NCBI GenBank assembly: GCA_021371995.1
Contig: JAJFVA010000007.1
Location: 1-40,420, forward strand
Length of the DNA: 40,420 bases
Reading direction: 5' to 3'
Source of the DNA: Methanoregulaceae archaeon
Lineage (GTDB): Archaea; Halobacteriota; Methanomicrobia; Methanomicrobiales; Methanospirillaceae
Positions 18,145 through 40,420 of the stretch are shown here, one piece after another; the stretch's first letter is position 1, and the number at the start of each line of letters is the position of its first letter. The notes under the pieces are model-generated. The model saw only the letters and a list, made by a program, of their open reading frames with translations, was not told the DNA's origin and did no database searches. Position numbers and translations under genes: made by a program.

Positions 18145-18579
18145 ATGGTGCTCATTTATGACGTCCGGACCAGGACCACAAATGAAGTCGAAAAAATCAG
18201 AAGGAGCGACAAAGAGTGGCGAAGCTTCCTCACCGATGAGTCGTTCCGGGTTGCGCGAAAAGCCGGGACAGAACCAGCTTTTTCCGGTAAATATCATGAT
18301 TTTCATGGCAGGGGCATCTACCAGTGCGTCTGCTGCGGCACCGATCTCTTCAGTTCTGATACAAAGTTTGAATCGGGGACCGGATGGCCGAGTTTTTATA
18401 CACCGGTCAATGACCATAACCTGCTCACCCGGGTCGATCAGAGTTACGGGATGATACGAACTGAAGTGCTCTGTGCCCGTTGCGACGCCCACCTTGGTCA
18501 CGTATTCGACGATGGACCGCCCCCGACGCATAAGCGTTTCTGCATGAACTCGGCATCCCTTCAGTTCCTGCCTGGATGA
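18145..18579 (+). CDS. msrB: Peptide-methionine (R)-S-oxide reductase MsrB
   Basis: Repairs R-methionine sulfoxide in proteins. 144 residues: zinc-binding pairs Cys61/Cys64 (CVCC) and Cys110/Cys113 (CARC), GTGWPSFY substrate loop, HLGHVFDDGPPPTHKRFCMNS with the catalytic Cys133. GGAGG lies 7 nt before the ATG. No MsrA is adjacent. It has its own transcription unit after the PEGA gene. Confidence 0.96.
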   Translation: MVLIYDVRTRTTNEVEKIRRSDKEWRSFLTDESFRVARKAGTEPAFSGKYHDFHGRGIYQCVCCGTDLFSSDTKFESGTGWPSFYTPVNDHNLLTRVDQSYGMIRTEVLCARCDAHLGHVFDDGPPPTHKRFCMNSASLQFLPG

Positions 18580-22404: not shown

Positions 22405-23172
22405 TCATTTCTTTCTTATCAGGAGAGTGCCCTTCCCCCGGTTAGCAACATCGCCCCTGAACACCATCATCTGGAAGCGTTGGCCTTCATATTCTCTCTC
22501 TTCAATGCCATTGCTTCTGAACGTAGGGAGCATTGCATCAGCATTTCCAAAGATCATGCAGGTTCCTCCCGTCATATTTCCACACGGCCGGTGGCAGTTC
22601 CCTCCGATGATCAGGGTTCCGCCCCGCATCTCGACCCCGGTGAGATCTCCGCAATCACCATGGATCCGGACCTCTCCCCCACAAAGGTACTCTGCTGTAA
22701 AATCACCGGAATTGCCCATCACCTCAACAGTACCGCCCCGCATGCCCCGTTTTTCACCACGATATCCCGCTGCACAGTAATGGCCTGCATTCCCCTCGCA
22801 GCGGATCATTCCCCCTCTCATCTCGCGGCCGAGCCATGCATCAGCATTCCCCCTAATGATAATTTCGCCCGCACTCATGAAATTCCCGCAGTGCATACCA
22901 ATATCTCCTTCAACCACAATGCGGCCTGCATTCATATACTCCCCCACCCGTTTGAGTGTTCCGGTCTCACCGGCAAGAACGATCTCAACCTGGTCAGGTG
23001 AGACCGCGGGTCCTTCAGTGGTGATGTAAAAGATCTCCTCAAGCTTCCGTTCCTTGTTCCCTTCATAGACCCGGATATCATTTTTCCGGAGGAAATTCTG
23101 GGGAATTACCGCCTCTGCCTCTATGGGAATGTGAGGGTTTTTCCGTGGTTTTGTCTGGAGAATAACCCTCAT
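22405..23172 (-). CDS. fwdC: Formylmethanofuran dehydrogenase subunit C
   Basis: Structural subunit of the enzyme that reduces CO2 to formylmethanofuran. 255 residues. A beta-helix is visible as repeated G-x-x-G elements (GDIGMHCGNFMSAGEIIIRG, MRGGMIRCEGNAG, MRGGTVEVMGNSG, MRGGTLIIGGNCH), homologous to the glutamate synthase C-terminal domain. Last gene of the eha-fwd operon; overlaps fwdA by ATGA. Confidence 0.97.
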   Translation of the reverse strand: MRVILQTKPRKNPHIPIEAEAVIPQNFLRKNDIRVYEGNKERKLEEIFYITTEGPAVSPDQVEIVLAGETGTLKRVGEYMNAGRIVVEGDIGMHCGNFMSAGEIIIRGNADAWLGREMRGGMIRCEGNAGHYCAAGYRGEKRGMRGGTVEVMGNSGDFTAEYLCGGEVRIHGDCGDLTGVEMRGGTLIIGGNCHRPCGNMTGGTCMIFGNADAMLPTFRSNGIEEREYEGQRFQMMVFRGDVANRGKGTLLIRKK

Positions 23173-24869
23173 AATGCTGCCTCTGTAGTGATACGGACCC
23201 CGCGGGGGAGATACAGGTCCTGAACAGGGTAGTTACTCATTCTTACGGTGTAGTACTGCTCAAACTTTTTAACAAATTCAGGATCGGCCGAAAGATTATA
23301 TTCAGGGGGAACGTTTGCTTTTGTCCAGATCGTGCTGTTTGCACCCTCCACTATAATATCACCGTCTCTTGCAACCACCCGGCCCCTCTTGATGGTATAC
23401 CGGGTCTTTCCAAATCCCGCCATCACCTGCTGGTAATCAGTCGAAGGATCAAGTAAGCCGGGTTTCAACGGGTAAATCGCGACATCAGCTTCGGCACCCG
23501 GAGCGAGATGCCCTTTCCCGATACCGCTAATGCCAAGCGCTTTTGCCTGTGCGGCCCTGGTCATAACCGCAATCTCATACCAGTCAAGTTCCCGGTCGAT
23601 TGCAGGGAGCGGGGCATAATGCCCGGTTCTCGGATCCAGGAGAGCCATTTCCCTTTCTCTGAACCGCCTGCTCATGAGAAGTGCAATAATTTCCGGATAC
23701 TTTACAAACGGTGCGCCATTGGGGTTATCAGTTGAGAGCATGCATTGCCATGGGTCTTTCACAAGCAGGGCGAGTTCAAGCCCGATAGCCCACATGACAC
23801 AGTTCACAAGGCTCTTCCGCGAATAATAGACAGGGATGATACCCGATCCTGTCTCGAGCTCCACATCATGATTGCTCCACTTGTTATGGTGGAGCATGTA
23901 CAGCTTAAACTCCATCGGGCCGTCGGCAGTCATGGTCGTGGTCCGGCCAAACATGATCTGTCCCATGTCAATGGCCAGCTGGGATTTGTTGTTCACTGCC
24001 CGGGCAATATCCTCGGATTTTGAACTGATATCCCTCCACGTTGACCCGCCGTAGGAATGGAACTGGAGATGTGTCAGATAGAGGCTTTGTCGCTTTGCAT
24101 TGAGGTCGGGGACAAGATCGATTGTATCGAGCGTGGTCTGGTAATTGCCCGGCACCCCGAGACAGTTGCAATGGAGGTGAACCGAATGAGGTAGGTTGAG
24201 GATCTCATTTGCCCTGATCATCGTTTCGATCATCTCACCGGGAGTCACTCCGAAATGGGGGACCTGGTCCCGGATACTATGGACATCCTCCCCAAAACCC
24301 CATGCCTCTGTCCCCCCTGGGTTGGTCAGCTTGATGGCAAATCCCTTCACCGCAGAGAGGGTCCATGCAACGACCGCGGCCGCACGGTTCACGTCCCTAT
24401 CCCGCACCGCTTCCATAATCGACCAGTTTCCGTCAAAGAGTGTGTTTGCGAGCATGTCCTGGTGAGGGGTGGCGGTAAACTCTTCATGGGTATGACGGGC
24501 TTCGAGTGGCGCCATCGCCCCTTCCAGCACGGTGGTGTATCCCATGGTGCTGTAACGGTAGGAGTTGCCGAAGGTGGTTGGCACGCTGTAGCCGGAGGTG
24601 ACATGCATCACCCCTTTTCGTGCGGTCCTGCCCGCCCGCATATCCTCGGGGCTCATGTACCGGCCGAAATTGACCTTGGTTCCGCAGACGTGCGAATGGG
24701 AGTCGATGCCGCCAGGGAGAGTGAGGCAGTGATCTGCATCGATAACTTCGGCATTTCTCCCGACTTCTTCAACAATTTTCCCGTCGCGGATTGCTATATC
24801 CATGATATCCCCTTTTATTCCTGAAAGGGGGTCAATAACATACGCGTTTCTGACCAGTAACTCGCTCAT
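23169..24869 (-). CDS. fwdA: Formylmethanofuran dehydrogenase subunit A
   Basis: Amidohydrolase-like subunit that condenses formate, made at the Mo/W site, with methanofuran at a dinuclear metal centre. 566 residues. Metal ligands recognisable: DSHSH (His58, His60), the carboxylated-lysine region GFAIKLTNPGG (Lys180), LHLHCNCLG, and STDNPNGAPF with the catalytic Asp. It overlaps fwdB and fwdC by 4 bp each. Confidence 0.97.
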   Translation of the reverse strand: MSELLVRNAYVIDPLSGIKGDIMDIAIRDGKIVEEVGRNAEVIDADHCLTLPGGIDSHSHVCGTKVNFGRYMSPEDMRAGRTARKGVMHVTSGYSVPTTFGNSYRYSTMGYTTVLEGAMAPLEARHTHEEFTATPHQDMLANTLFDGNWSIMEAVRDRDVNRAAAVVAWTLSAVKGFAIKLTNPGGTEAWGFGEDVHSIRDQVPHFGVTPGEMIETMIRANEILNLPHSVHLHCNCLGVPGNYQTTLDTIDLVPDLNAKRQSLYLTHLQFHSYGGSTWRDISSKSEDIARAVNNKSQLAIDMGQIMFGRTTTMTADGPMEFKLYMLHHNKWSNHDVELETGSGIIPVYYSRKSLVNCVMWAIGLELALLVKDPWQCMLSTDNPNGAPFVKYPEIIALLMSRRFREREMALLDPRTGHYAPLPAIDRELDWYEIAVMTRAAQAKALGISGIGKGHLAPGAEADVAIYPLKPGLLDPSTDYQQVMAGFGKTRYTIKRGRVVARDGDIIVEGANSTIWTKANVPPEYNLSADPEFVKKFEQYYTVRMSNYPVQDLYLPRGVRITTEAAL

Positions 24870-26155
24870 AGCCCTTTTGCCTCCTTCACGAGTGCGTATA
24901 AACGCTCCAGTATTTCGGTATCGCTTGGATAGTTACCTTTGAACAGCATTCGGGTCCTGATCGGCACCCCGTCCATCCGGTATGCGGTACCCTCTGCGTC
25001 AATACCCGTGACGGCGACAGGGATCTGGATGCGGGAGAGATGAGTAGTCGCATTGGTGTGCGGGTCTATCTGGATTGTCGGGATTTGGGCAAGGTGTTCG
25101 GCACACGCCTTTGGAAAGTGTGCCCCGGGATCACTTGCCACTACGAGGCAGGCATCGCATTCCTTCCGGCGGAGCACATCAACACTCGTCGTCTCCCCGG
25201 GATTATAAAAGGCAATGCCCCGGGCAAAATCAACAGCATAGGGATACCCGGAAATCCAGGTGAAAACTTCGTTTGATCCATACACATTCCAGTGTCCCCG
25301 CATAGGGGAGATCGTATATTTTGTGTGACGGTTCAGCTCTTCGGTCAGCTCAATCGCATTCCTGATGTTTTTATACTTTCCGGGGGACATGGTGAGGCCG
25401 AGTCCAAAGAAGATTGCCCCGAATTTTGCAGAGAGGAGGAGGGCTGCTACACGGAAGAGCTGTTCTCTTGATACCCCGGATACCGATAAGGGAATTATTC
25501 CCCGCTTTCCCATCACGATCGCCCTTAATGCAGAGAGAACTGCATAATCACCGCCCGGCTGGATCTTGACAAATTCATCGGCGATATTCGCTGACTCAGT
25601 CTTCCGGACATCGACAACGATGACCTTCCGGTCCCGGAATGCTTCCTTTAAAAAGAACCCGTCCGCAAAGGTGGTGTACCGGCTCATATGCCTCGGGTGG
25701 GCATCAATAGGATTCGTACCCCAGTACACGATCACATCAGCCCTGTTCTTGACCTGCCCGAGCGTACACCCGGGATGACCCACCTCCTGGATAGCCATGA
25801 TAGAGGGGCCATGGCAGACCGTTGAGGTATTGTCGACCAGTGCACCGAGGAGTTCGGCCAGATGAATTCCGATGCTCTGGGCTTCGCCGTGTGTCCCGCT
25901 CCAGCCATAGAGGAGGGGCCGGTCGGCATCGCAGAGGATCTCTGCTGTTTCCCGGATAGCCTCGTTGTAGGATGTCTCTTCCCACCTTTTTCCAGCCCTG
26001 CGGATTGGGGACTTCAGGCGATGGTCCCCCATAAACTTCTCGCTTGCGAGAGTACAGCCATTCTCGACACTGACAACCCGTGTTCCCTCTACTTCCACTA
26101 CAAGATCATCACAGAGACAACCGCAGAAGGGGCATACCACGTCCTCAATCTTCAT
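24866..26155 (-). CDS. fwdB: Formylmethanofuran dehydrogenase subunit B (Mo/W active-site subunit)
   Basis: Reduces CO2 to formate at a tungsto- or molybdopterin centre. 429 residues. A [4Fe-4S] motif is at Cys8, Cys11, Cys15 with Cys34 (CPFCGCLCDD); the metal ligand is a cysteine, Cys114, in STVCHGPS, not selenocysteine. YWGTNPIDAHPRHMSRY is characteristic. W versus Mo use cannot be told from sequence. A second paralogue begins at 39,920. Confidence 0.97.
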   Translation of the reverse strand: MKIEDVVCPFCGCLCDDLVVEVEGTRVVSVENGCTLASEKFMGDHRLKSPIRRAGKRWEETSYNEAIRETAEILCDADRPLLYGWSGTHGEAQSIGIHLAELLGALVDNTSTVCHGPSIMAIQEVGHPGCTLGQVKNRADVIVYWGTNPIDAHPRHMSRYTTFADGFFLKEAFRDRKVIVVDVRKTESANIADEFVKIQPGGDYAVLSALRAIVMGKRGIIPLSVSGVSREQLFRVAALLLSAKFGAIFFGLGLTMSPGKYKNIRNAIELTEELNRHTKYTISPMRGHWNVYGSNEVFTWISGYPYAVDFARGIAFYNPGETTSVDVLRRKECDACLVVASDPGAHFPKACAEHLAQIPTIQIDPHTNATTHLSRIQIPVAVTGIDAEGTAYRMDGVPIRTRMLFKGNYPSDTEILERLYALVKEAKGL

Positions 26156-26534
26156 ACTGTATCCCTCCGCATTGCTCCATGAGTGCCGCCACCGTTACCA
26201 GCGGTTCAGTGGTAGGGGTGATTTGCACGATCATTCCCTTGAAATCAGGCATCCCTGTGCAGTGGGTTTCAGGGCTGACGAGGTGATTTGCATATGGCCC
26301 CAGGCAGACAAAAACCTCGCCCTGTGAGATCCAAAGTGCAGGGTAGACTTTCATAACAACGACCCCATAATCACTTTCCACCCTCACATGGGATTCCTCT
26401 TCTATCTCCAAATCCATCATGTCCACCGGGTGCATATGCAGGGATGTGGCCTCCTGCCGGTATGCAGTTGAGTTCTTCCGCTCTACATACGAGCCCTGCT
26501 TGATGGTCCGGCCGGTATTGAGAAGAAATTTCAT
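26145..26534 (-). CDS. fwdD: Formylmethanofuran dehydrogenase subunit D (molybdopterin dinucleotide-binding)
   Basis: 129 residues, a stand-alone molybdopterin-dinucleotide binding domain that completes the FwdB active-site fold. Opens MKFLLNTGRTIKQGSYVERK and includes ALWISQGEVFVCLGPYANHL and ETHCTGMPDFKG. Overlaps fwdB by 11 bp and the ferredoxin gene by 4 bp. Confidence 0.95.
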   Translation of the reverse strand: MKFLLNTGRTIKQGSYVERKNSTAYRQEATSLHMHPVDMMDLEIEEESHVRVESDYGVVVMKVYPALWISQGEVFVCLGPYANHLVSPETHCTGMPDFKGMIVQITPTTEPLVTVAALMEQCGGIQYED

Positions 26535-27142
26535 ACCTCTTCCTCCTGCCCGTGAACCGCTTCAAGAAGCCGGGAAACACGAATCGCTTCGTTCGGGCAA
26601 TGGTTTTCACAGGTCTTGCAGCCAGTGCACTTCTCAACGTGCAGAACATGACACTTTCCCTCACTCACCTTCAGCAGGAGCTCATCAGTAGAAGCGCGGC
26701 CCCCATGGGACATCTGGGCATCGATCAACTTGTTTACGGGACAGGCAACGGCACAGTTCCCGCATCCCATGCAGAGATCGGTATTCACATCAATGCGGAA
26801 TGAGAAGGAGAGCCGTGTGTTGTCATAGAACATTGATTCAAGGATCCGGCCGCTTGTAAGCACCCCGTTCGGGCAGGCTTCAACACAGAGGCCGCAACGG
26901 ATACAGTGCCCCATGTGGATTCGTGGCTGCCACCCTCCGGGTGTCCGGATGACATCGATAGCCCCTGGAGCGGGGCAGGCCATCATGCAGAACAGGGCAT
27001 GGGTGCAGGTTTTACCGGTTAGCTCCGGAAATCCCCGGAAGTAGGGGGGAGTGAGCAGCGGCGCTGTTTTTACGAAAAAGAATTTTCGCAGCCATTCCAG
27101 CCTGGTTACCTCCTGAATGTAGGGGATAATCGGAAAAGCCAT
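26531..27142 (-). CDS. Four-motif [4Fe-4S] ferredoxin subunit linking Eha to Fwd
   Basis: 203 residues from MAFPIIPYIQEV (the start after GGTGAT; the longer frame to 27,178 is inside the hydrogenase gene). Motifs 2-4 are canonical: Cys80/83/86/90, Cys124/127/130/134 and Cys172/175/178/182. Motif 1 has Cys46, Cys52 and Cys56-Pro but Ala at position 49, where the second Cys should be, so one cluster may be [3Fe-4S] or use another ligand. It lies exactly between the hydrogenase large subunit and fwdD. It is probably the electron path between them (inference). Confidence 0.9.
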   Translation of the reverse strand: MAFPIIPYIQEVTRLEWLRKFFFVKTAPLLTPPYFRGFPELTGKTCTHALFCMMACPAPGAIDVIRTPGGWQPRIHMGHCIRCGLCVEACPNGVLTSGRILESMFYDNTRLSFSFRIDVNTDLCMGCGNCAVACPVNKLIDAQMSHGGRASTDELLLKVSEGKCHVLHVEKCTGCKTCENHCPNEAIRVSRLLEAVHGQEEEV

Positions 27143-27143
27143 A

Positions 27144-28232
27144 TCACCGCTCCGTGCAGGCAATGCACGGGTCTGCACTCACAAAAGTCGATGGCACATC
27201 CGCAAGTGAGGAGACCCCTTTCAACATATAGTGACAGCACGCCTCGATGTTCATGATGGAGGGGGTCTGAATCGAGATATCAACAACCCTCCCTGCCGCG
27301 TCGGTCTTTATAAAATAGGAGAGCTCCCCGCGGGGAGCCTCCCCTGAATATGCGATCTCGCCTGCACCAGGGATACCCCCGCCACGGATTGGACCTTCCG
27401 GGAGCGTGTCAAGGCATTTCCGGATGATACTGATGCTCTCAAGTACTTCCTGGAACCGGACCATAATCCTCGCATAATTATCCCCTTCAGTGCGTGAGAC
27501 AGGAGAAAAACCGAGTTTCTTATAGGTGGGATGGTGTATACGCCGATCAGTTTCAGGCATCCCGCTTGCCCGTGCGGTCGGACCGACCGCATGTGCCTCA
27601 AGGGCGGCTCCCCTAGAAAGCACCCCTATCTCCCTGCTCCTGAGTGCGATGAGCGGGCCGCCCTCAAACATGTGCATATAGCGTGTGACCTCCTCCTCAA
27701 TAACCGCAAGGTTTGCCCTAAGATGGAGAACATCTTCGGAGCGGAGATCGAACCTGACTCCGCCGGGAACGATATAAGCGCAAGTGACCCGGGCTCCGGT
27801 TATCCTCTCGAGCTCGTCCATGACATGCTCCCGCACATCCAGCAGGTACATTGCGAGCGTTTCATGCTCGATAGTATAACAATACGAGAAGTTTGCCAGG
27901 ATATGGCTCTGCATCCGATCAAGCTCATTAACAATGACACGGAGCAGGGCAGCGCGTTCTGGCACGGCGATTGTGCTCATCTGTTCAAGGGCCTCGATAA
28001 AAACCATATTGTGAATTACTGAACAGATCCCGCAGACCCGTTCAGCAAGAAACATCACTTCCTGCCATGGCCTTCCCCGCATGATCCGTTCAATTCCCTT
28101 TTTCATATAACCGAGTTCCACTTCCGCAGAAATGACAAACTCGCCTTTTGTTTCGCACTTGACCCGTGCCGGCTCCTTGAAGCAGGGGTGTATCGGCCCG
28201 ATAGGAACCGAGACGTCAACCGTTCGCTTCAT
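27144..28232 (-). CDS. ehaO: Energy-converting [NiFe]-hydrogenase large subunit (EhaO-type)
   Basis: Carries the Ni-Fe site that oxidises or produces H2. 362 residues. The N-terminal Ni ligand motif is RVCGIC (Cys67, Cys70); the C-terminal motif is DPCIACTER (Cys356, Cys359), so all four Ni ligands are present. The protein ends right after this motif: no cleavable C-terminal extension, a feature known for some Ech/CooH-type enzymes, so no maturation protease step is expected. Related to complex I NuoD. Overlaps the small subunit by ATGA. Confidence 0.93.
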   Translation of the reverse strand: MKRTVDVSVPIGPIHPCFKEPARVKCETKGEFVISAEVELGYMKKGIERIMRGRPWQEVMFLAERVCGICSVIHNMVFIEALEQMSTIAVPERAALLRVIVNELDRMQSHILANFSYCYTIEHETLAMYLLDVREHVMDELERITGARVTCAYIVPGGVRFDLRSEDVLHLRANLAVIEEEVTRYMHMFEGGPLIALRSREIGVLSRGAALEAHAVGPTARASGMPETDRRIHHPTYKKLGFSPVSRTEGDNYARIMVRFQEVLESISIIRKCLDTLPEGPIRGGGIPGAGEIAYSGEAPRGELSYFIKTDAAGRVVDISIQTPSIMNIEACCHYMLKGVSSLADVPSTFVSADPCIACTER

Positions 28233-28684
28233 CGTTTTGCAACCTCGTAATCTTTGAACACCAGGGGAGCGACCGAGAGGACCGCGGCAAGAATCTCCGT
28301 CGGCCTTGGGGGACAGCCCGGTACTTCAGCTGCGATCGGGATATGTTTTGAAACAGGTGGGTCGACGAGAGTATGCGGCCGGTTGAACAGGCAGCCGGAG
28401 ATTGGGCAGTTCCCAACCGCAATTGCCACCTTGGGGTCAGGGATCTTTTCCCAGAGCGTGTGGAGTTTCTCCTCCCAACCGGGAGTATATGCACCAATCA
28501 CGAGCAGGATATCAGCCTCCCTGGGATTATTATGCACATAAATGCCGTACTGTTCGATATCATACCGGGGGGAGAGACATGCAAGCACCTCAATATCACA
28601 GCCATTGCAGGACCCGACATCCACGTAGGCCACATGGATGGACTTTGAACGGACCAGGTTTTTCACTGATTGGAGGATACTCAT
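28229..28684 (-). CDS. ehaN: Energy-converting hydrogenase small subunit (EhaN-type)
   Basis: NuoB-like subunit holding the proximal [4Fe-4S] cluster. 151 residues with YVDVGSCNGCDIEVLAC (Cys26, Cys29), VGNCPISGC and the terminal EVPGCPPRPTEIL. No signal peptide, so it is cytoplasmic on the membrane arm. Overlaps the large subunit and the DUF1959 gene by 4 bp each. Confidence 0.93.
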   Translation of the reverse strand: MSILQSVKNLVRSKSIHVAYVDVGSCNGCDIEVLACLSPRYDIEQYGIYVHNNPREADILLVIGAYTPGWEEKLHTLWEKIPDPKVAIAVGNCPISGCLFNRPHTLVDPPVSKHIPIAAEVPGCPPRPTEILAAVLSVAPLVFKDYEVAKR

Positions 28685-29070
28685 TGAAGTATCACGCCCC
28701 GAATCATTTTCCGCCCTGCGACAACGGCTTCATGTTCAGATGTCCCTTCCCGGATCAGGGTCTGCACCTGCTCTGTTATCTTACCCATCTCGCTGCTGCT
28801 TATAAGCGGAATGGCGCGGGTATAGAGGCCTGCACCCAGATCTTTCTCAACGGGATTTTCAGTCTTCCTTGAGTTTTTTCCCTGGTCATACCGGGCAGGC
28901 AGGTTCTCAAGGAGCATCATATCGAACCGGTCCATCATCAGCTTTCGGAGCCTGATCTGGGGAATATCCAGTTCTGCCGCTATCTCCCTGATCATCCTGT
29001 CATGCCTGGTACTGGTGAGTATTGCATACTTCATTGCCGAGAGGTCCTTTTCATACATAAACGCGGTCAT
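28681..29070 (-). CDS. ehaM: EhaM-like DUF1959 protein
   Basis: 129 residues from MTAFMYEKDLSAMKYAILTS. The open frame runs to 29,145, but the ATG at 29,070 overlaps the stop of the previous gene (ATGA) and matches the family start. All-helical protein recognised as DUF1959, the EhaM subunit in Eha clusters. Motifs: HDRMIREIAAELDIPQIRLR and MLLENLPARYDQ. Function unknown; its presence marks this as an Eha rather than Ech hydrogenase. Confidence 0.85.
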   Translation of the reverse strand: MTAFMYEKDLSAMKYAILTSTRHDRMIREIAAELDIPQIRLRKLMMDRFDMMLLENLPARYDQGKNSRKTENPVEKDLGAGLYTRAIPLISSSEMGKITEQVQTLIREGTSEHEAVVAGRKMIRGVILQ

Positions 29071-29309
29071 AGGACACCCGAAAATTTCAGGATTCCATAA
29101 ATCACGAAGAGGAAGATAGCAGACCAGAGCATGATGATCTCCCACTTATGAACGCCCTCATGACTGCCATACCAGTAGATGCCTGCTGCGATCATGATGA
29201 CACTGCCTGCAGCGAGCGCTCCTGTTGCAACTGATGGTCTCTGGATAACCTGAATTGCGAGTATTATCAGGTAAGTGATACCCGCTCCAAGAAGAATCTC
29301 CCTGATCAT
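29067..29309 (-). CDS. ehaL: Eha small membrane subunit (EhaL-like)
   Basis: 80 residues with three membrane segments (ILLGAGITYLIILAIQVI, TGALAAGSVIMIAAGIYWYG, IIMLWSAIFLFVIYGILKF). Position between the NuoH-like and DUF1959 genes corresponds to EhaL. Overlaps both neighbours by 4 bp. Confidence 0.75.
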   Translation of the reverse strand: MIREILLGAGITYLIILAIQVIQRPSVATGALAAGSVIMIAAGIYWYGSHEGVHKWEIIMLWSAIFLFVIYGILKFSGVL

Positions 29310-30148
29310 GCAATCACCCCGAGAACTGCTGCATACCCGAGCATGACCCCTGTTATCAGCATCTGCACGGTCACGCTGTCAAACGGAGAGAGCATAGGGG
29401 AAAATGCACATGCAAAGGAGAGAGATACGGTGAGGAGAATCATACCCGCTAACATCCACCAGATCGGAATTCCTCCGATGAATACCGTAATAAACATGAA
29501 CATCAGGACATATGTCTTCAGTCCGTTACATATCTCAAGGCCTGCCCTCCATACTCCGAAATGTTCGGTCTTGTACCCGCTGACGAGCTCTTTGCTTTCG
29601 ACGATGGAAAAGGGTCCGAAGGGCATTTTTGAGAGAATAACGATATACATCGCGATAGCGGCGAGCGGAACGATAAACAGGAGGGGGCCGTGGATCGCCT
29701 GGTATTGGACAATTGATGAGATTTCGAGTGACTGGGTGTACAATGCCACAACTGCAACACTGACAAAGAGCGGTATCTCTGATGCGGCTGATATCACCGA
29801 TCTCACTCCACCGAATTTTCCATAGGGTGACCCTGATGAGAGTCCAAACCCATGCTCAACAATTTTGTGGAGCATATATATCCCAAAGATGATCAGGATA
29901 CTCCCCCCCGCAAGCAACACAAAAAGGGCTGCGCTCCAGATTCCGATCGCAACGAGTACCACGCCGACAAACAGGATATTGCTCGCAGTAGCAGGGATCC
30001 AGGTGCTCTTGAATGAGAATTTCAGCATGTGAAGGATCTCCTGCCACACAGGGGGTCCGGGACGACGCTGGATCCTTGCGATCACCTTCCGGTGAATTCC
30101 AAGCAGGAGGAGGCCGAATACAACCGCAAAGAGAAGATAACCTATCAT
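29306..30148 (-). CDS. ehaJ: Eha membrane subunit J (complex I NuoH homologue)
   Basis: 280 residues, about eight membrane segments. The NuoH-type loop is seen as KVIARIQRRPGPPVWQEIL, and FGPFSIVESKELVSGYKTEH is the conserved acidic loop near the quinone-site equivalent. It couples the electron-transfer arm to the ion-translocating part. Confidence 0.92.
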   Translation of the reverse strand: MIGYLLFAVVFGLLLLGIHRKVIARIQRRPGPPVWQEILHMLKFSFKSTWIPATASNILFVGVVLVAIGIWSAALFVLLAGGSILIIFGIYMLHKIVEHGFGLSSGSPYGKFGGVRSVISAASEIPLFVSVAVVALYTQSLEISSIVQYQAIHGPLLFIVPLAAIAMYIVILSKMPFGPFSIVESKELVSGYKTEHFGVWRAGLEICNGLKTYVLMFMFITVFIGGIPIWWMLAGMILLTVSLSFACAFSPMLSPFDSVTVQMLITGVMLGYAAVLGVIA

Positions 30149-30149
30149 A

Positions 30150-30362
30150 TCAGTATCCTATGAAGGGAATATCCTCCCCGTGTTCACGCGCCATCCACCA
30201 GAGGAACAAACATATCACACAGATCGGAAAACATACCACGATAATCGCCTCATATCCCACGAGCGGGAGGGTCCCATTCTGCCAGAGCACGAACCCGATC
30301 ACCAGGAGTGCTCCTGTGATAAGCGCCAACGCCCGAAGCATGTCCTTTTTTTTCGTCATCAT
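30150..30362 (-). CDS. ehaI: Eha small membrane subunit (EhaI-like)
   Basis: 70 residues with two membrane segments (LALITGALLVIGFVLWQNG and AIIVVCFPICVICLFLWWMA) and the tail EHGEDIPFIGY. Start at 30,362 or the second Met at 30,359. Identity by position between EhaH- and EhaJ-like genes. Confidence 0.72.
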   Translation of the reverse strand: MMTKKKDMLRALALITGALLVIGFVLWQNGTLPLVGYEAIIVVCFPICVICLFLWWMAREHGEDIPFIGY

Positions 30363-31021
30363 ATCACCAGCACGACTTCAATCACCCGCAGGAAAATCAG
30401 GAGTGATGAAAGGGAGCACATGATCACATACGGTGCACCCGGAGCCCTGAACATCTCCGCCTTGGCTGCATAGAAAGGAGCCATTCCTTCGCCCATCACT
30501 CCAAGCACGAGGAGTGCTTTCACCACAAGAGGTACAGCAGGGGTTGCACTGCTCCAGAGTTCTACCATCGATAGTGTCCCGGTTGTTGCTGCGATAAGGG
30601 CTGCGGCTCCGAAAAGGGGGACGGTTGCGGAAAGAGCAACGATCCCGTACTGGTATGCAGCATTCTGGACGTGACGGTTTTTCACCGCTGCCACAATTCC
30701 CACATTGCATATCCCGACAAGTGAAATAAAAAGGGTGAAATTGAAGATGTCTCCCGTCAGCATCGCACCCATGGACGCAAATCCGCAGGCAATTGCCATG
30801 AACCTGCGGAACCTCAGCTCCTGAAGGGATGTTTCCTTGGCGTAATATGCATCCCCTCCAAAGGCGATATCCACCTGCCGCTCCGGTTTTGCCATCACTG
30901 CAAACATGGTAAATACGAGCGCCAGGAGAAACAGCGAGACAGTATAGGGGCTGAAATATACCAGTTCGTCGCCAAACTCAAGGATATAATAAGGTATACC
31001 CCCAAGGCTACTCATTTCCAT
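30359..31021 (-). CDS. ehaH: Eha membrane subunit H (truncated antiporter-like)
   Basis: About 220 residues, six membrane segments. It keeps the core of the NuoN/MrpD antiporter fold: GDIFNFTLFISLVGICNVGI and the lysine helix VVKALLVLGVMGEGMAPFYA. The residue lysine in this helix is the one used for proton or Na+ movement in the family. The frame also offers a GTG at 31,024; the ATG at 31,021 or 31,015 is more likely. Confidence 0.88.
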   Translation of the reverse strand: MEMSSLGGIPYYILEFGDELVYFSPYTVSLFLLALVFTMFAVMAKPERQVDIAFGGDAYYAKETSLQELRFRRFMAIACGFASMGAMLTGDIFNFTLFISLVGICNVGIVAAVKNRHVQNAAYQYGIVALSATVPLFGAAALIAATTGTLSMVELWSSATPAVPLVVKALLVLGVMGEGMAPFYAAKAEMFRAPGAPYVIMCSLSSLLIFLRVIEVVLVI

Positions 31022-31610
31022 CACCCCAGATTGTTGCTGATAGGGAGAGTTTAACCATAACTTTCAAGAGGATGCCGATTGCCGCCAAAAAGAGGGCAAA
31101 CATCCAGTATTCCGGTATGAACATGAAGACAAAGAATGCGAAGATCCATGTTGCCCACGATATCCCGCTTGCCATCTCCAGAAGTTCGAAGTGTTCCCGG
31201 TGACCTCTCGCCATAAAGTAAAAGACCACCCCGAGTCCGGCCACGCCACCGCCAGTAAAACCTGATAGCACAACCCCATAACAGATAAGCAGAACAGAGA
31301 TGATAAGTGGTGCGTCCGCTTGTATCACCTCGATATTCAGCCCTTGGACCACCTTATCCCTAAATCCTTCCTTTATAACATAGATCTGTGAAAGGGCAAG
31401 AAGCTCGGCGATCCCGACCACCAGCCCAGGGAGTATCAGGGCCTCTGCAAGATCGGTACCAAGCAGGGCGATGATCCCGAGAGATGAAACCTCCACGAGG
31501 TCAAGAAGGAGGAGGCGGTGGAGATCATCCTTCTCAACAACAAGGGCAAAAAAGGCGATAACCGCGGCGATAAAAACCAGCAGCACCCCGATCGAGAATT
31601 CCTGCCACAT
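31008..31610 (-). CDS. ehaG: Eha membrane subunit G
   Basis: 200 residues, about six membrane segments (VLLVFIAAVIAFFALVV; IALLGTDLAEALILPGLVVG; SVLLICYGVVLSGFTGGG; WIFAFFVFMFIPEYWMFALF). Conserved EVSSLGIIALLGTD suggests an EhaG-type, DUF2104-2109-group subunit. TAG stop overlaps the ehaH start. Confidence 0.85.
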   Translation of the reverse strand: MWQEFSIGVLLVFIAAVIAFFALVVEKDDLHRLLLLDLVEVSSLGIIALLGTDLAEALILPGLVVGIAELLALSQIYVIKEGFRDKVVQGLNIEVIQADAPLIISVLLICYGVVLSGFTGGGVAGLGVVFYFMARGHREHFELLEMASGISWATWIFAFFVFMFIPEYWMFALFLAAIGILLKVMVKLSLSATIWGDGNE

Positions 31611-31613
31611 TGT

Positions 31614-32057
31614 TCATCCCTTCCTATACAGATACGAGGCGATCGCAAAAGCTATGAACAGAATGGTCGTTTCCACCACCGTGTCAAGGCCCCTGGTATT
31701 GTAAAGGATTTCATCGAGAATTCCGCCGGGATGAGCGACAATGGTCGTGCCGAGATACAGCGTCGTATTAGCCAGATACCATGAGAACGGGGTGAGATAT
31801 GATGTGACGTACCCTGCCGTGGGAGAGTTCTCCGGGTACTGGTCATTTATGGTTACCTGGGTGAAGGGAGGCCCCCCCCTCTCATACGGATTGAGAGGGC
31901 TTGCAGGGTCTATCGTCTTTGGATAGAGCTGCTCCTCGTAATAAGGGAGGGGGAGGGAAAAGATTGCAACCACAAACAGGACGGACACTGCTCCCGCAAA
32001 GAGCGGCATAATCATCTCATAATTCGAGATAATCCGGGAGATTCTCTGGATGATCAT
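31614..32057 (-). CDS. ehaF: Eha membrane subunit F
   Basis: 147 residues: an N-terminal membrane segment, an external loop rich in Pro and Tyr (LPYYEEQLYPKTIDPASPLN), and a C-terminal MnhB-like segment (GLDTVVETTILFIAFAIASY). Typical of EhaF. Overlaps ehaE by 4 bp and ends 3 bp before the ehaG start. Confidence 0.85.
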   Translation of the reverse strand: MIIQRISRIISNYEMIMPLFAGAVSVLFVVAIFSLPLPYYEEQLYPKTIDPASPLNPYERGGPPFTQVTINDQYPENSPTAGYVTSYLTPFSWYLANTTLYLGTTIVAHPGGILDEILYNTRGLDTVVETTILFIAFAIASYLYRKG

Positions 32058-36201: not shown

Positions 36202-37392
36202 TCAGGTATTATCTTTTACCAGGTGCCTCCCGGAAAAATCCGATAAATGCATCTGTCTCTGCCTGAAAGAATCGGCGAGGAGGGTACTTTCCCGGATAAA
36301 ACGGGATACAGGAAGCTCGAATTTTTGTGAGACATGGTTCAGGGCAGAAGTGAGATCTTCAAAAACAGAGGGGGGTTGCAGCATGGCATGACGTACGTTT
36401 TCCCTCACATTGAAGACCCCCATGGGGATATACCCTTTATATGCCTCTCGAAGAATTATCACACCCGCCTGTTTTCCCATCCTGCTGAGTGCTTCGAGAA
36501 CAGCCATTTTACTGGAATAATAACAGCCGCCAACACAGGAATACTCCTTTTTTCCCCTGTTCACTTCATAATCTGAGAAGATAAGCTCCTCATCGCAGGT
36601 AACGTGAAGGAACGCTTCCATCCATTCGAATTTCCACGGAACAGGCATAAGAATAACGGCATAATTATTATAGAGGCTTGAAAACGCATGCACCCGGAAG
36701 GAATCAACCATTCCACATCGACGTACTTTTGAGAGGAAGCTGTTCGCAAGTGTAATATCGCAGGCGGTGATTGCCCATCTGGTCGGCACGAGCCTCCTAT
36801 GTTTTTTCCTGCCCATAGTCCCCGCGGACAATACCTTTTGCACAACAGAGAAAGGGAATCCTTCTGCATTGAGATGAATGATGGCATCCGTTGCCGTGAG
36901 ATCTGTATCGTAATAGACCTTCTCAAGGCTGGTCTCCCAACGGGCAGACCCGGTTTCGAAACGGTCAAGATAGCCACTCGGACCAAAAGGGGTATGCTCC
37001 TCACCTGTAAAGCCTCCCTGCGGAGGATCGGAAAAAACCGCTTCACTCTCAAGCGATGTCGATGAAAGGGCAATATCCCTGAGCTGCTCCGCGAACCGGC
37101 CGGAAAGATCCCTTACATCCAGGAGACGCTTTCCCCTTACAAGGCTCATCCTGTACCTGATAATCTCATTTTGCGAGAGTTCTCCAGGAATCCAGGATTC
37201 CGGGGTATCCATGATCCTTGTATCACCGTGAGACGGGCATATCATCGGACCTGCAAACACCTTGGGGTAATTCCAACTCCCGACAAAAACCGAAGGAGGA
37301 GAGGTTCCCTCAAGGGTCTTTCCTATCCTGACGGATGGCATGGGTTGCACCGTGGTAAGTTTTTTCAGATACGCTCCTTTCCCACCATGCAT
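36202..37392 (-). CDS. nreA: NreA-type archaeal DNA-repair protein
   Basis: 396 residues. The Nre signature SPPSVFVGSWNYPKVFAGPM is near residues 31-50. A C-terminal PCNA-interaction-like motif QMHLSDFS occupies residues 380-387 with only one aromatic residue. Nre proteins act with PCNA in archaeal DNA damage responses. The N-terminal zinc finger of many members is missing. A short alternative frame just upstream and across the ATG encodes CDRCMVGK, so a start-proximal frameshift is possible. Single gene with its own promoter. Confidence 0.85.
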   Translation of the reverse strand: MHGGKGAYLKKLTTVQPMPSVRIGKTLEGTSPPSVFVGSWNYPKVFAGPMICPSHGDTRIMDTPESWIPGELSQNEIIRYRMSLVRGKRLLDVRDLSGRFAEQLRDIALSSTSLESEAVFSDPPQGGFTGEEHTPFGPSGYLDRFETGSARWETSLEKVYYDTDLTATDAIIHLNAEGFPFSVVQKVLSAGTMGRKKHRRLVPTRWAITACDITLANSFLSKVRRCGMVDSFRVHAFSSLYNNYAVILMPVPWKFEWMEAFLHVTCDEELIFSDYEVNRGKKEYSCVGGCYYSSKMAVLEALSRMGKQAGVIILREAYKGYIPMGVFNVRENVRHAMLQPPSVFEDLTSALNHVSQKFELPVSRFIRESTLLADSFRQRQMHLSDFSGRHLVKDNT

Positions 37393-37944: not shown

Positions 37945-38029
37945 ACACTCACCTGGGAATATAGTCCCGTTTCACTATCCCTTGCAATTGTTATACAAAT
38001 AAGTTACTTGATTACTTTCTTGATCTTAC

Positions 38030-38179
38030 TCACATGTCCTTGCCAAGGGACTGAAAGCCATGAGCACTACGGGTATGTTCAGCGATCTTCTTCTCCAGGT
38101 CCGCTTCGTTCAGAGCGGTTGCAGTGAAACTATAGTCCCTACCGATATCCTAACATCCTGAATGATCGTATGCCTTCAA
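38030..38179 (-). pseudogene. DUF1059 small protein, inactivated
   Basis: A 50-codon minus frame beginning at a TTG gives LKAYDHSGC, then a TAG at codon 10, then DIGRDYSFTATALNEADLEK and KIAEHTRSAHGFQSLGKDM. This clearly matches DUF1059 (usual CKDIGMDCSF...KIAEHAKSAHG). The Lys after the first Cys is a TAG (AAG to TAG), and the second conserved Cys is Tyr. Two damaging changes indicate a pseudogene. It is too short and broken for ordinary annotation. Confidence 0.72.
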
Positions 38180-38416
38180 AGCAACTGTTCAATACTTATC
38201 ATAAATCTTCCTCACAATGACTTTGCTAAGGGAAGCTACAGAAGATATTGCACTACTGATTAACAGGGAACCTCGGTCAAATGATTATCAAAAGGGGAGA
38301 TCCTCCTATCATGGGTTCGACCCGGCGTTCATTTATTTAACAGGCTGGAACGGCCTGGTCCCTGACGTTTCAAAGCCTAGAAAAACCATATGTGTTCATG
38401 AGATACCCATACTTTC

Positions 38417-38914
38417 ATGGATCTCTATCTCCTCAGGCATGGAAAATCTGAAAAGACGGTTCCCGCGGGAGGCAGTGATAATGAACGTGCACTAACCGGG
38501 CGCGGCAAATCCGATATGCGGGAAGTAGCAGCATGGATTCGCTCTCAGGGGTGCGTAATTGACTGCATTGTTACAAGCCCGCTCACCCGGGCAAGGGAAA
38601 CTGCCGCAATCATCGCTGAAGTATATCCTGCTGCAAGAGGCCCGGAACTATGGGAAGAGCTTTCACCAGGTGCTGAACTTGATCGGCTCCTGTCCCGGAT
38701 CCGGGAGCAGCACACAAGTACATCCCTGCTTCTTATCGGGCATGAGCCTTCGATGAGTGCCTGTATTGGCCGGATCATCTCAGGGTCCCGAAATGTCCAC
38801 ATTGTGCTGAAGAAAGGTGGCCTGGCGAAAATTGTGAATTTTATCCCGTCAGAAAATTCTTCCGGGGACCTGACATGGCTGCTCACCCCGCGCCATATGC
38901 GAAAAAGTGTCTGA
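38417..38914 (+). CDS. sixA: SixA-type phosphohistidine phosphatase
   Basis: Histidine phosphatase superfamily, 165 residues. LYLLRHGKSEKT carries the catalytic RHG (Arg7, His8), followed by SPLTRARETAAII and IGHEPSMSACIG with the second His. The short SixA-type length argues against a phosphoglycerate mutase. No ribosome-binding site; likely short leader from a TATA-like box near 38,333-38,340. Convergent with the MsvR-like gene. Confidence 0.9.
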   Translation: MDLYLLRHGKSEKTVPAGGSDNERALTGRGKSDMREVAAWIRSQGCVIDCIVTSPLTRARETAAIIAEVYPAARGPELWEELSPGAELDRLLSRIREQHTSTSLLLIGHEPSMSACIGRIISGSRNVHIVLKKGGLAKIVNFIPSENSSGDLTWLLTPRHMRKSV

Positions 38915-38929
38915 AAAACAGGTCCCAAC

Positions 38930-39742
38930 TTAGCGGGCATCGAGAGGCATACGGCCAGGCAGCTCTATTAGTTCGAATCTGCAGAGATTATTCCCCATTG
39001 CATAACAGTGGGTCTCGATCGCTTTCAATCGCTGTTCGTAATGAAGGGAGAATAGGGCGGACAGGAGCCCGGATTCAAAAGCACATGCAGGTTTTCCTTG
39101 TATAGGGAGGTCGATGCATTCAAAACAGTCCCGGATATTCAATGTCAGGGGAGTTACCCTTTCCAGCTCCACTTTCCCCAATCCATTTTTCTCCCACAGT
39201 TTCCCTATCCGGTTCACCATACTCTCGATATCATGACCCTCCACACAGGGATACAGGCTTTTTCCTGCTTTCAATCCGGCGAGGTTGAGTACAGGATCGA
39301 TGGTGATCCCCTGGTCCATAAGATTAAGGCGTATTGTGGAGAGAATGAAACGATAGAGTGTTGCAGGATTCCCATCACAGGGGATATCTTTTCTGACATA
39401 CCGGTCAAGGTCAAACCAGCCCCGTTCCCCGGAATCAGCGCTCCCAAGGAAGAACGAATGCAGATAAAAAATTTTTTTACGACCGTCCACGGGATCAGAT
39501 CTGGCCCCAACAATACCTGCTTCTGCAAGATCCTTAAGGTGGACAGAGACCGTTGACTTTGCACGACCGGAATTTTCCACAAGTTCATCAAATGCCATCT
39601 CATTCCCGGAAAGCATCTCAAGGATCTTCACCTTCACCGGACTTCCTACCGCACTTATACCATTCGAGGTTGAATAGAGGCCGACATACGGAAACCTCTC
39701 CGGGATTAGGAAGTCAGGATCTGCCATTACAGGTTCTTCCAT
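38930..39742 (-). CDS. MsvR-type regulator (ArsR helix-turn-helix plus V4R domain)
   Basis: 270 residues. Residues ~35-100 are an ArsR-type winged helix (VKILEMLSGNEMAFDELVEN, SGRAKSTVSVHLKDLAEAGI). The C-terminal V4R domain has DCFECIDLP (Cys206, Cys209), Cys220, and CYAMGNNLC (Cys246, Cys254), a set of cysteines as used for redox sensing by MsvR. It is divergent from the second fwdB/fmdB, with paired TTCGTA motifs between. Start could be 39,742 or the Met at 39,727; a TATA-like box at 39,761-39,772 favours a near-leaderless transcript. Confidence 0.88.
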   Translation of the reverse strand: MEEPVMADPDFLIPERFPYVGLYSTSNGISAVGSPVKVKILEMLSGNEMAFDELVENSGRAKSTVSVHLKDLAEAGIVGARSDPVDGRKKIFYLHSFFLGSADSGERGWFDLDRYVRKDIPCDGNPATLYRFILSTIRLNLMDQGITIDPVLNLAGLKAGKSLYPCVEGHDIESMVNRIGKLWEKNGLGKVELERVTPLTLNIRDCFECIDLPIQGKPACAFESGLLSALFSLHYEQRLKAIETHCYAMGNNLCRFELIELPGRMPLDAR

Positions 39743-39760
39743 AATTCCTGTACATCAAAA

Positions 39761-39819
39761 AGTATATATTAGTTTAGTTCGTATAACATTGAACGTTCGT
39801 ATACCTTAAAACATTTAAA
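39761..39819. promoter_or_regulatory. Divergent promoters with two MsvR-like half boxes
   Basis: GTTCGTATA occurs twice as direct repeats (39,777-39,785 and 39,795-39,803; start-to-start 18 bp), with GAACGTTC, a perfect palindrome, at 39,791-39,798. The published MsvR box, as I remember it, is TTCGTA-N4-TACGAA; here the left half is perfect twice and the right half degenerate. TATA-like boxes flank them: 39,761-39,772 for the regulator and 39,805-39,819 for fmdB. Confidence 0.6.
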
Positions 39820-39919
39820 CAGGGGATGGCACCTTCACTCCCCCTCACGATTGTGCTCCGGTCTGCACATGATGATTTCCCTCCGGTGCCTTCCCTTGCA
39901 AACATGAGGTGTAAATCTG

Positions 39920-40420
39920 ATGACGAAAACAGTAACCGATGTGATCTGTCCCTTCTGCGGGACCCTGTGCGATGATCTTGAGGTTGAGGTCTCTGATGAT
40001 GGCAAGACGATCGTTGACGTATACAACGCCTGTGCGATCGGAGCAGAGAAGTTCATGCACGCCCAGGCCAAGGACCGGGTAAAACGGCCGAGGATGCAGC
40101 AACCGGACGGCAGCTACAAGGAAGTCACATATGACGAGGCTGTTGAGTACACCGCCCAGATGTTTGCGAAAGCGAAGAAACCGCTGATGTATGGCTGGAG
40201 TTCGACGAGTTGCGAAGCACAGAGTGTCGGGCACGAGATTGCCGAGAAGGCGGGCGCGATCGTAGATAATACTGCGACCGTCTGCCACGGCACGACATTA
40301 ATTGCCGTGCAGGACGTTGGGATCCCGAGTTGCACGCTTGGCGAAGTGAAGAACCGTGCGGACCGTATCCTGTTCTGGGGGTGCAACCCGACGCACGCCC
40401 ACCCGCGGCACCAGTCGAGA
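39920..40420 (+). CDS. fwdB: Formylmethanofuran dehydrogenase subunit B, second copy (cut by right edge)
   Basis: First 167 residues. [4Fe-4S] ligands Cys10, Cys13, Cys17 and Cys38 (CPFCGTLCDD, NACAIGAEKF), and the Mo/W ligand Cys122 in TATVCHGTT. Differs clearly from the copy at 24,866 (same motifs, different sequence), so it may be the other metal isoenzyme (FmdB versus FwdB). GAGGTG lies ~9 nt before the ATG. Divergent from the MsvR-type regulator, which probably controls it. Confidence 0.95.
   Translation, partial: MTKTVTDVICPFCGTLCDDLEVEVSDDGKTIVDVYNACAIGAEKFMHAQAKDRVKRPRMQQPDGSYKEVTYDEAVEYTAQMFAKAKKPLMYGWSSTSCEAQSVGHEIAEKAGAIVDNTATVCHGTTLIAVQDVGIPSCTLGEVKNRADRILFWGCNPTHAHPRHQSR

Follow-up and report, generated by a model that had tools for sequence, protein, structure and literature searches.

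The divergent msvR and fwdB' genes

The window, that is, the whole 40,420-nucleotide stretch analysed here, is a complete contig (C30) of a 1.85-Mb genome in 43 contigs; its last 501 bp are the beginning of fwdB'. This genome, like most of its relatives, is a draft assembly, probably a MAG. The following features concern us here:

38930..39742, − strand: msvR, encoding 270 aa with an N-terminal ArsR-type winged helix and a C-terminal V4R domain
39742, − strand: ATG start codon of msvR; alternatively the ATG at 39727, five codons downstream
39763..39771, − strand: TATA-like msvR box, located some 24 bp upstream of the ATG at 39742
39777..39794, no strand: MsvR site II, GTTCGTATAACATTGAAC, a msvR-proximal GTTC-N10-GAAC dyad that includes the first GTTCGTATA; predicted from conservation over 55 loci and a dyad test
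39795..39812, no strand: MsvR site I, GTTCGTATACCTTAAAAC, a fwdB-proximal dyad with a degenerate outer half that includes the second GTTCGTATA; predicted
39804..39820, + strand: predicted TATA-like region serving fwdB', CCTTAAAACATTTAAAC, which shares bases with the outer half of site I
39920..40420, + strand: fwdB', a duplicate gene for formylmethanofuran dehydrogenase subunit B, of which the 5' 167 codons are present before the contig end

The sequence-only reading had described the gene to the left of the repeats as a V4R regulator with MsvR architecture, and the profile searches bear this out. The product scores 271.1 bits against NF053755 (an NCBIfam equivalog with a cut-off of 220) over positions 1-235 of 236, and Pfam matches place PF01022 (HTH_5) at 34-78 and PF02830 (V4R) at 201-258. 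By its sequence the protein is a member of the MsvR family, the only one above the NF053755 cut-off in the window genome. The five C-terminal cysteines attributed to it are there, neither more nor fewer (C206, C209, C220, C246 and C254), and all five are invariant in 81 of 81 orthologues. We also noticed a second, distant MsvR type (35-38% identical to the window MsvR) in G221, G223 and G229 (L046, L049 and L054), which is not accompanied by the two-site operator, and a window-genome protein with two consecutive V4R-like stretches (G000:C31:55035-55778). An archaeal Nre (DNA repair) gene lies near msvR in the window (36205-37392, − strand), and a Nre-like gene is also close to msvR in G157, G222 and G231.

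Two copies of GTTCGTATA are found on the + strand at 39777-39785 and 39795-39803, 18 bp apart and between the TATA-like boxes of both genes, with no other copy in the window. In the shuffled window 0.12 copies are expected, and at least two copies occurred in just 1 of 100 shuffles. The presence of two repeats between divergent promoters, as first noticed from the letters, is thus confirmed. Both copies are real, but they are not free direct repeats: each is the intact left half of one of two abutting 18-bp dyads. Both dyads follow the GTTC-N10-GAAC pattern and combine one perfect TTCGTA half with one degenerate half, the right half of site I being the most degenerate. The strict full inverted repeat TTCGTAN4TACGAA is absent from the window. 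At loci where the divergent gene encodes FprA, the site I dyad is intact (GTTCG-N8-CGAAC), for example GTTCGTATGCTATCGAAC upstream of fprA in G193. The TTCGTA half-site had been compared with the known MsvR box, and its geometry here agrees with the published motif TTCGTAN4TACGAA / TTCGN7-9CGAA (PMC3729527).

The two dyads lie against the promoter elements on both sides. Site II adjoins the TATA-like box of msvR, which is kept as AGTATATAT or CTATAAATA at an equal distance from the operator in 19 loci. The fwdB' side carries TTAAAA and TTTAAA stretches, and site I abuts or overlaps the TATA-like TTAAAA; ATAAAAC or TTAAAAC stands in the matching place at most relatives partnered with fwdB or with the winged-helix gene described below (wHTH). 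A search for a leader RNA element gave no Rfam family match within 38000-40420.

Conservation of the operator and its divergent partners

We surveyed the window and 80 further msvR loci in Methanomicrobia genomes, 81 loci in all. The upstream DNA was aligned in msvR orientation on the best match to TACGAA-N12-TACGAA and scored over the 12 half-site bases. At least 10 of the 12 bases are present at 55 of the 81 loci, and at least 9 at 61 of 81, compared with 6.7 loci expected from shuffles. The repeats are therefore conserved upstream of orthologues, and their absence there, which the sequence-only reading had named as one outcome that would speak against it, is contradicted. The consensus of the 55 loci, GTTCgtannnaTACGAACaTTCTATTGTATaCGAAC, reads as two abutting 18-bp GTTC-N10-GAAC dyads, with the same half-site spacing as in the published TTCGTAN4TACGAA (PMC3729527). 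The dyad score is 0.60 at the chosen register and at most 0.45 when the register is slid by up to 4 bp. Because the symmetry is highest at exactly this register, the two-dyad model replaces that of a free direct-repeat operator. Two-dyad arrays are also found at other msvR genes in the phylum (L259-L262).

The hexamer TTCGTA by itself is not enriched in the window (14 seen against 10.6 expected), as might be the case if the repeats had arisen by chance or belonged to another regulator. Such an explanation is nevertheless extremely improbable in view of the conservation of the repeats, their unique location and their agreement with the published MsvR motif geometry, and the conservation across msvR loci contradicts a chance repeat.

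A genome-wide motif search within the genus found the exact operator at most once per genome and always at msvR. No wider regulon using the same operator emerged in the genus: the exact two-half-site pattern has no second copy, its matches with one mismatch are at the level of the reversed-pattern control, and TTCGTAN4TACGAA with one mismatch is overall less frequent than its control. With its defined register of site I and site II, the two-dyad model can be used in searches for MsvR targets in other genomes.

We then clustered the genes divergent to msvR at the 81 loci into partner classes: FprA (36), fwdB (7, counting the window and the G222 fragment), wHTH (11), MsrB-like (5) and the remainder (22). 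The operator, at 10 or more of 12 bases, is present at 35 of 36 FprA loci, 7 of 7 fwdB loci and 11 of 11 wHTH loci, compared with 0 of 5 MsrB loci and 2 of 22 of the rest; that is, at 53 of the 54 loci with divergent FprA, fwdB or wHTH and at 2 of the 27 others. Elsewhere, the window (18145-18576, + strand) also encodes a MsrB-like (SelR) protein; in another family (L095-L099), a gene of this kind is the one divergent to msvR.

These counts bear on whether the operator controls msvR alone, with fwdB' having landed at a spare divergent promoter and its expression being incidental. A purely autoregulatory site is conceivable, since the M. acetivorans protein (MaMsvR) bound its own promoter and none of the tested oxidative-stress promoters (PMC3729527), and fwdB' has a patchy distribution, with decayed copies in some relatives. 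However, the presence of the two-site operator goes hand in hand with that of a divergent partner, an argument for its acting on the partner as well as on msvR, and neither the contact of site I with the fwdB-side TATA-like box nor the purifying selection on the fwdB' coding sequence (see below) would be expected of an incidental neighbour. We regard autoregulation only as unlikely.

The MsvR protein tree groups the fwdB and wHTH loci in one clade, in which fwdB occupies three sub-branches. Among relatives, msvR most often stands divergent to the gene for FprA, an F420H2 oxidase and O2-reducing flavodiiron protein. In other Methanomicrobiales (for example G193 and G197), such msvR-fprA pairs enclose the same two-dyad operator as the window, but their target, FprA, was missing when genomes of the window's clade were searched. 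More precisely, the MsvR-linked FprA type (74-88% identical) is lacking in every genome searched from the genus and two related genera, where the FprA paralogues that are left are 33-37% identical, except for one of 52% in G223. MsvR-linked FprAs carry the dyad upstream, whereas these remaining paralogues have no MsvR dyad upstream, which speaks against FprA still being controlled in trans by MsvR in these genomes. In the window, an oxidative-stress target of the fpaA/fprA type is likewise not seen: no FprA adjoins msvR, and the FprA paralogues of this genome lack the dyad. Control of such a target is a trait of one characterised member, the M. thermautotrophicus MsvR, and does not define the family, to which MaMsvR is counted although it bound no such promoter among those tested. 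Since the operator faces FprA in most relatives, the redox switch seems to have been redirected, with FprA lost and fwdB' and wHTH gained in this clade. This swap offers a natural comparison set.

The MsvR-side fwdB copy and the winged-helix gene

The window fwdB' product reaches 241 bits against TIGR03129, for which 327.8 are required, but the match is partial (positions 1-158 of 421), the gene being cut by the contig end; CPFC and TVCHG are present. Full-length MsvR-side FwdB proteins in G157, G223, G229 and G231 score 615-621 bits against the family model. The description of the divergent gene as a second formylmethanofuran dehydrogenase needs amending: the genome has three fwdB starts. These are a divergent type at 24869-26155, the copy in the hdr-fwdDBAC-mcr operon on contig C37, and the window copy, which is a near-duplicate of the operon copy (97% nucleotide identity). 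The divergent type belongs to a divergent fwd set (22408-32057, − strand) whose FwdB shares 48-50% of its amino acids with the main one and which lies beside genes for a NuoI/NuoD/NuoH-like membrane complex. Two motifs known from [NiFe] hydrogenases, CGIC and a C-terminal DPCxxC, are present in the NuoD-like protein of this run, and by this resemblance the run likely encodes a Fwd-coupled energy-converting hydrogenase.

The downstream part of the fwdB' unit can be approached from the contig ends. C30 (msvR side) and C37 (hdr...fwdD side) share exactly 141 bases at their ends and stop at one fwdB base. Likewise, C25 (fwdA end-fwdC-mcr) and C16 (fwdA end-wHTH) begin at one fwdA base and have their first 141 bases, and no more, in common. 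A contig joining these ends is missing from the bin, in which the search found only the other fwdA. Four such ends are expected when a de Bruijn assembler run at k=141 collapses a two-copy repeat. Given the shared ends, the arrangement in the window genome is most likely msvR and, divergently, fwdB'-fwdA'-wHTH, where fwdA' is inferred from the contig ends and wHTH is the small winged-helix gene following it (G000:C16:255-479). Four contig ends of the same kind, sharing 141 bp, occur in G223, and the wHTH gene likewise follows the end of a fwdA in G229, G226, G221 and G228.

Other relatives have shorter versions of the unit. In the near-closed genome G157 (2 contigs), msvR is divergent to a stand-alone fwdB' followed by wHTH, 0.79 Mb from the main operon hdrCBA-mvhD-fwdDBAC-mcrBDC...; the two fwdB genes are 98.9% identical over 1321 bp, which is about the gene itself. 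G225 also has fwdB'-wHTH without fwdA'. In G222 only a 45-codon fwdB fragment is left, and in G220 (L094) the wHTH reading frame begins with a short, decayed N-terminal fwdB piece, a trace of a lost fwdB'. In G224, G227 and G230, wHTH alone is the partner. The state of these last three genomes and the G222 fragment indicate that fwdB' is dispensable. In G231, msvR is divergent to fwdBAC-mcr on one contig (L188, G231:C87:16000-28445), which reflects either a real relocation of the main operon beside msvR or a misjoin at the fwdB repeat.

The window copy differs from the operon copy at 15 of 501 bp, 13 of them at third positions, with three amino-acid changes, and the G157 pair has a dN of 0 and a dS of 0.04. 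In G223 and G229 the MsvR-side copies make up a distinct lineage: they share 95% of their amino acids between them and about 81% with the operon copy, and their dN/dS is about 0.02. The active-site TVCHG (AVCHG in G193) is retained in every copy compared. Judged by dN/dS and the intact active site, the MsvR-side copies are under purifying selection, and where the gene occurs it is preserved as an enzyme, though it has been lost in some relatives. The near-identity of copies could reflect recent or transient duplication.

Two further explanations should be considered here. An extra fwdBA could raise the amount of Fwd or keep a repair template, being expressed constitutively with no meaningful redox control. 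The copies do cluster within each genome (97% nucleotide identity for the window pair, 99% for that of G157), and an identical stretch that collapses in assembly is as expected from gene conversion or recent duplication. However, the extra copy recurs beside one and the same MsvR operator and not elsewhere, and the MsvR-side copy of G223 and G229 is a separate lineage, about 81% identical in amino acids to the operon copy and 95% between species; we consider a dosage or gene-conversion role distinctly unlikely. Alternatively, wHTH could be the regulated target and fwdB' an insertion riding along, later lost. This would fit the loci where wHTH is the partner without fwdB' (G224, G227 and G230, and further genera of the clade) and the position of wHTH downstream of fwdB'(A') wherever fwdB' is present. 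A full-length fwdB' with a dN/dS of about 0.02 is nevertheless more than a passenger, so that this explanation is rather improbable, and even so the unit would be controlled by MsvR. The HTH of the G227 wHTH homologue has a weak likeness (25 bits) to that of MsvR, on the strength of which the wHTH protein may be a co-regulator.

A candidate redox switch on a methanogenesis enzyme

Known MsvR systems provide the elements of a mechanism. MsvR is a dimer, MaMsvR binds DNA only when reduced, via its V4R cysteines, and bound MsvR blocks TBP/TFB; redox-dependent DNA binding has been published for two relatives, and divergent FpaA control for relatives as well (PMC3729527). Boxes 2 and 3 of Methanothermobacter thermautotrophicus PmsvR/fpaA form the inverted repeat TTCGTAN4TACGAA and box 1 is a direct repeat of box 3 (PMC3729527). 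The M. thermautotrophicus MsvR resembles the window protein in its HTH and V4R domains, its divergent partner and several boxes between the promoters (layout per PMC3729527), as well as in the CX2CX3 motif (with P for H in the window protein) and three conserved V4R cysteines. In contrast, its partner there is an operon of fpaA (F420H2 oxidase) and other oxidative-stress genes, whereas that of the window is a duplicated fwdB(A) with a winged-helix gene. The M. acetivorans MsvR shares only about 29% of its residues with the window protein, but its three V4R cysteines, C206, C232 and C240, which are functional, match C220, C246 and C254 of the window protein with like spacing (26 and 8 in the window). 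In G536, a 5.75-Mb genome that is probably M. acetivorans, a dyad of the same geometry, TTCGTAGTCACGCGAAC, immediately precedes a TATA box. Unlike the window, this genome has a single dyad and no divergent target is known.

We consider it fairly likely that the locus consists of two divergent promoters flanking a two-site MsvR operator, and that it is derepressed on oxidation and then yields extra FwdB/FwdA. Within this proposal, MsvR very probably binds the predicted operator here, and it probably also controls fwdB'. In reduced cells, one MsvR dimer would sit on each dyad, and the two dimers would cover the promoter elements of msvR and fwdB', blocking TBP/TFB at both promoters so that msvR and fwdB'(A')-wHTH are repressed. 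Oxidation of the V4R cysteines would release MsvR from both dyads and allow extra catalytic FwdB, with FwdA, to be made; we infer that these could well replace oxidation-damaged Fwd subunits. The winged-helix protein may tune the oxidation response.

FwdB is the metal- and FeS-containing catalytic subunit of Fwd, the first enzyme of CO2-reducing methanogenesis. To our knowledge, few targets of MsvR have been identified so far (FpaA and its operon, and msvR itself), and little is understood of how strict anaerobes resume methanogenesis after contact with oxygen. In PMC, a single paper, on a whole-cell M. acetivorans model, names both MsvR and formylmethanofuran dehydrogenase. More tentatively, the MsvR of this clade might have moved from defence (FprA, O2 removal) to core metabolism, oxidation releasing a dedicated spare set of catalytic subunits of this first enzyme, which gene conversion or repeated duplication keeps, in some genomes, near-identical to the main copy. 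An operator that faces a duplicated Fwd module leads to the hypothesis that a replacement first enzyme would be made when redox control is lost.
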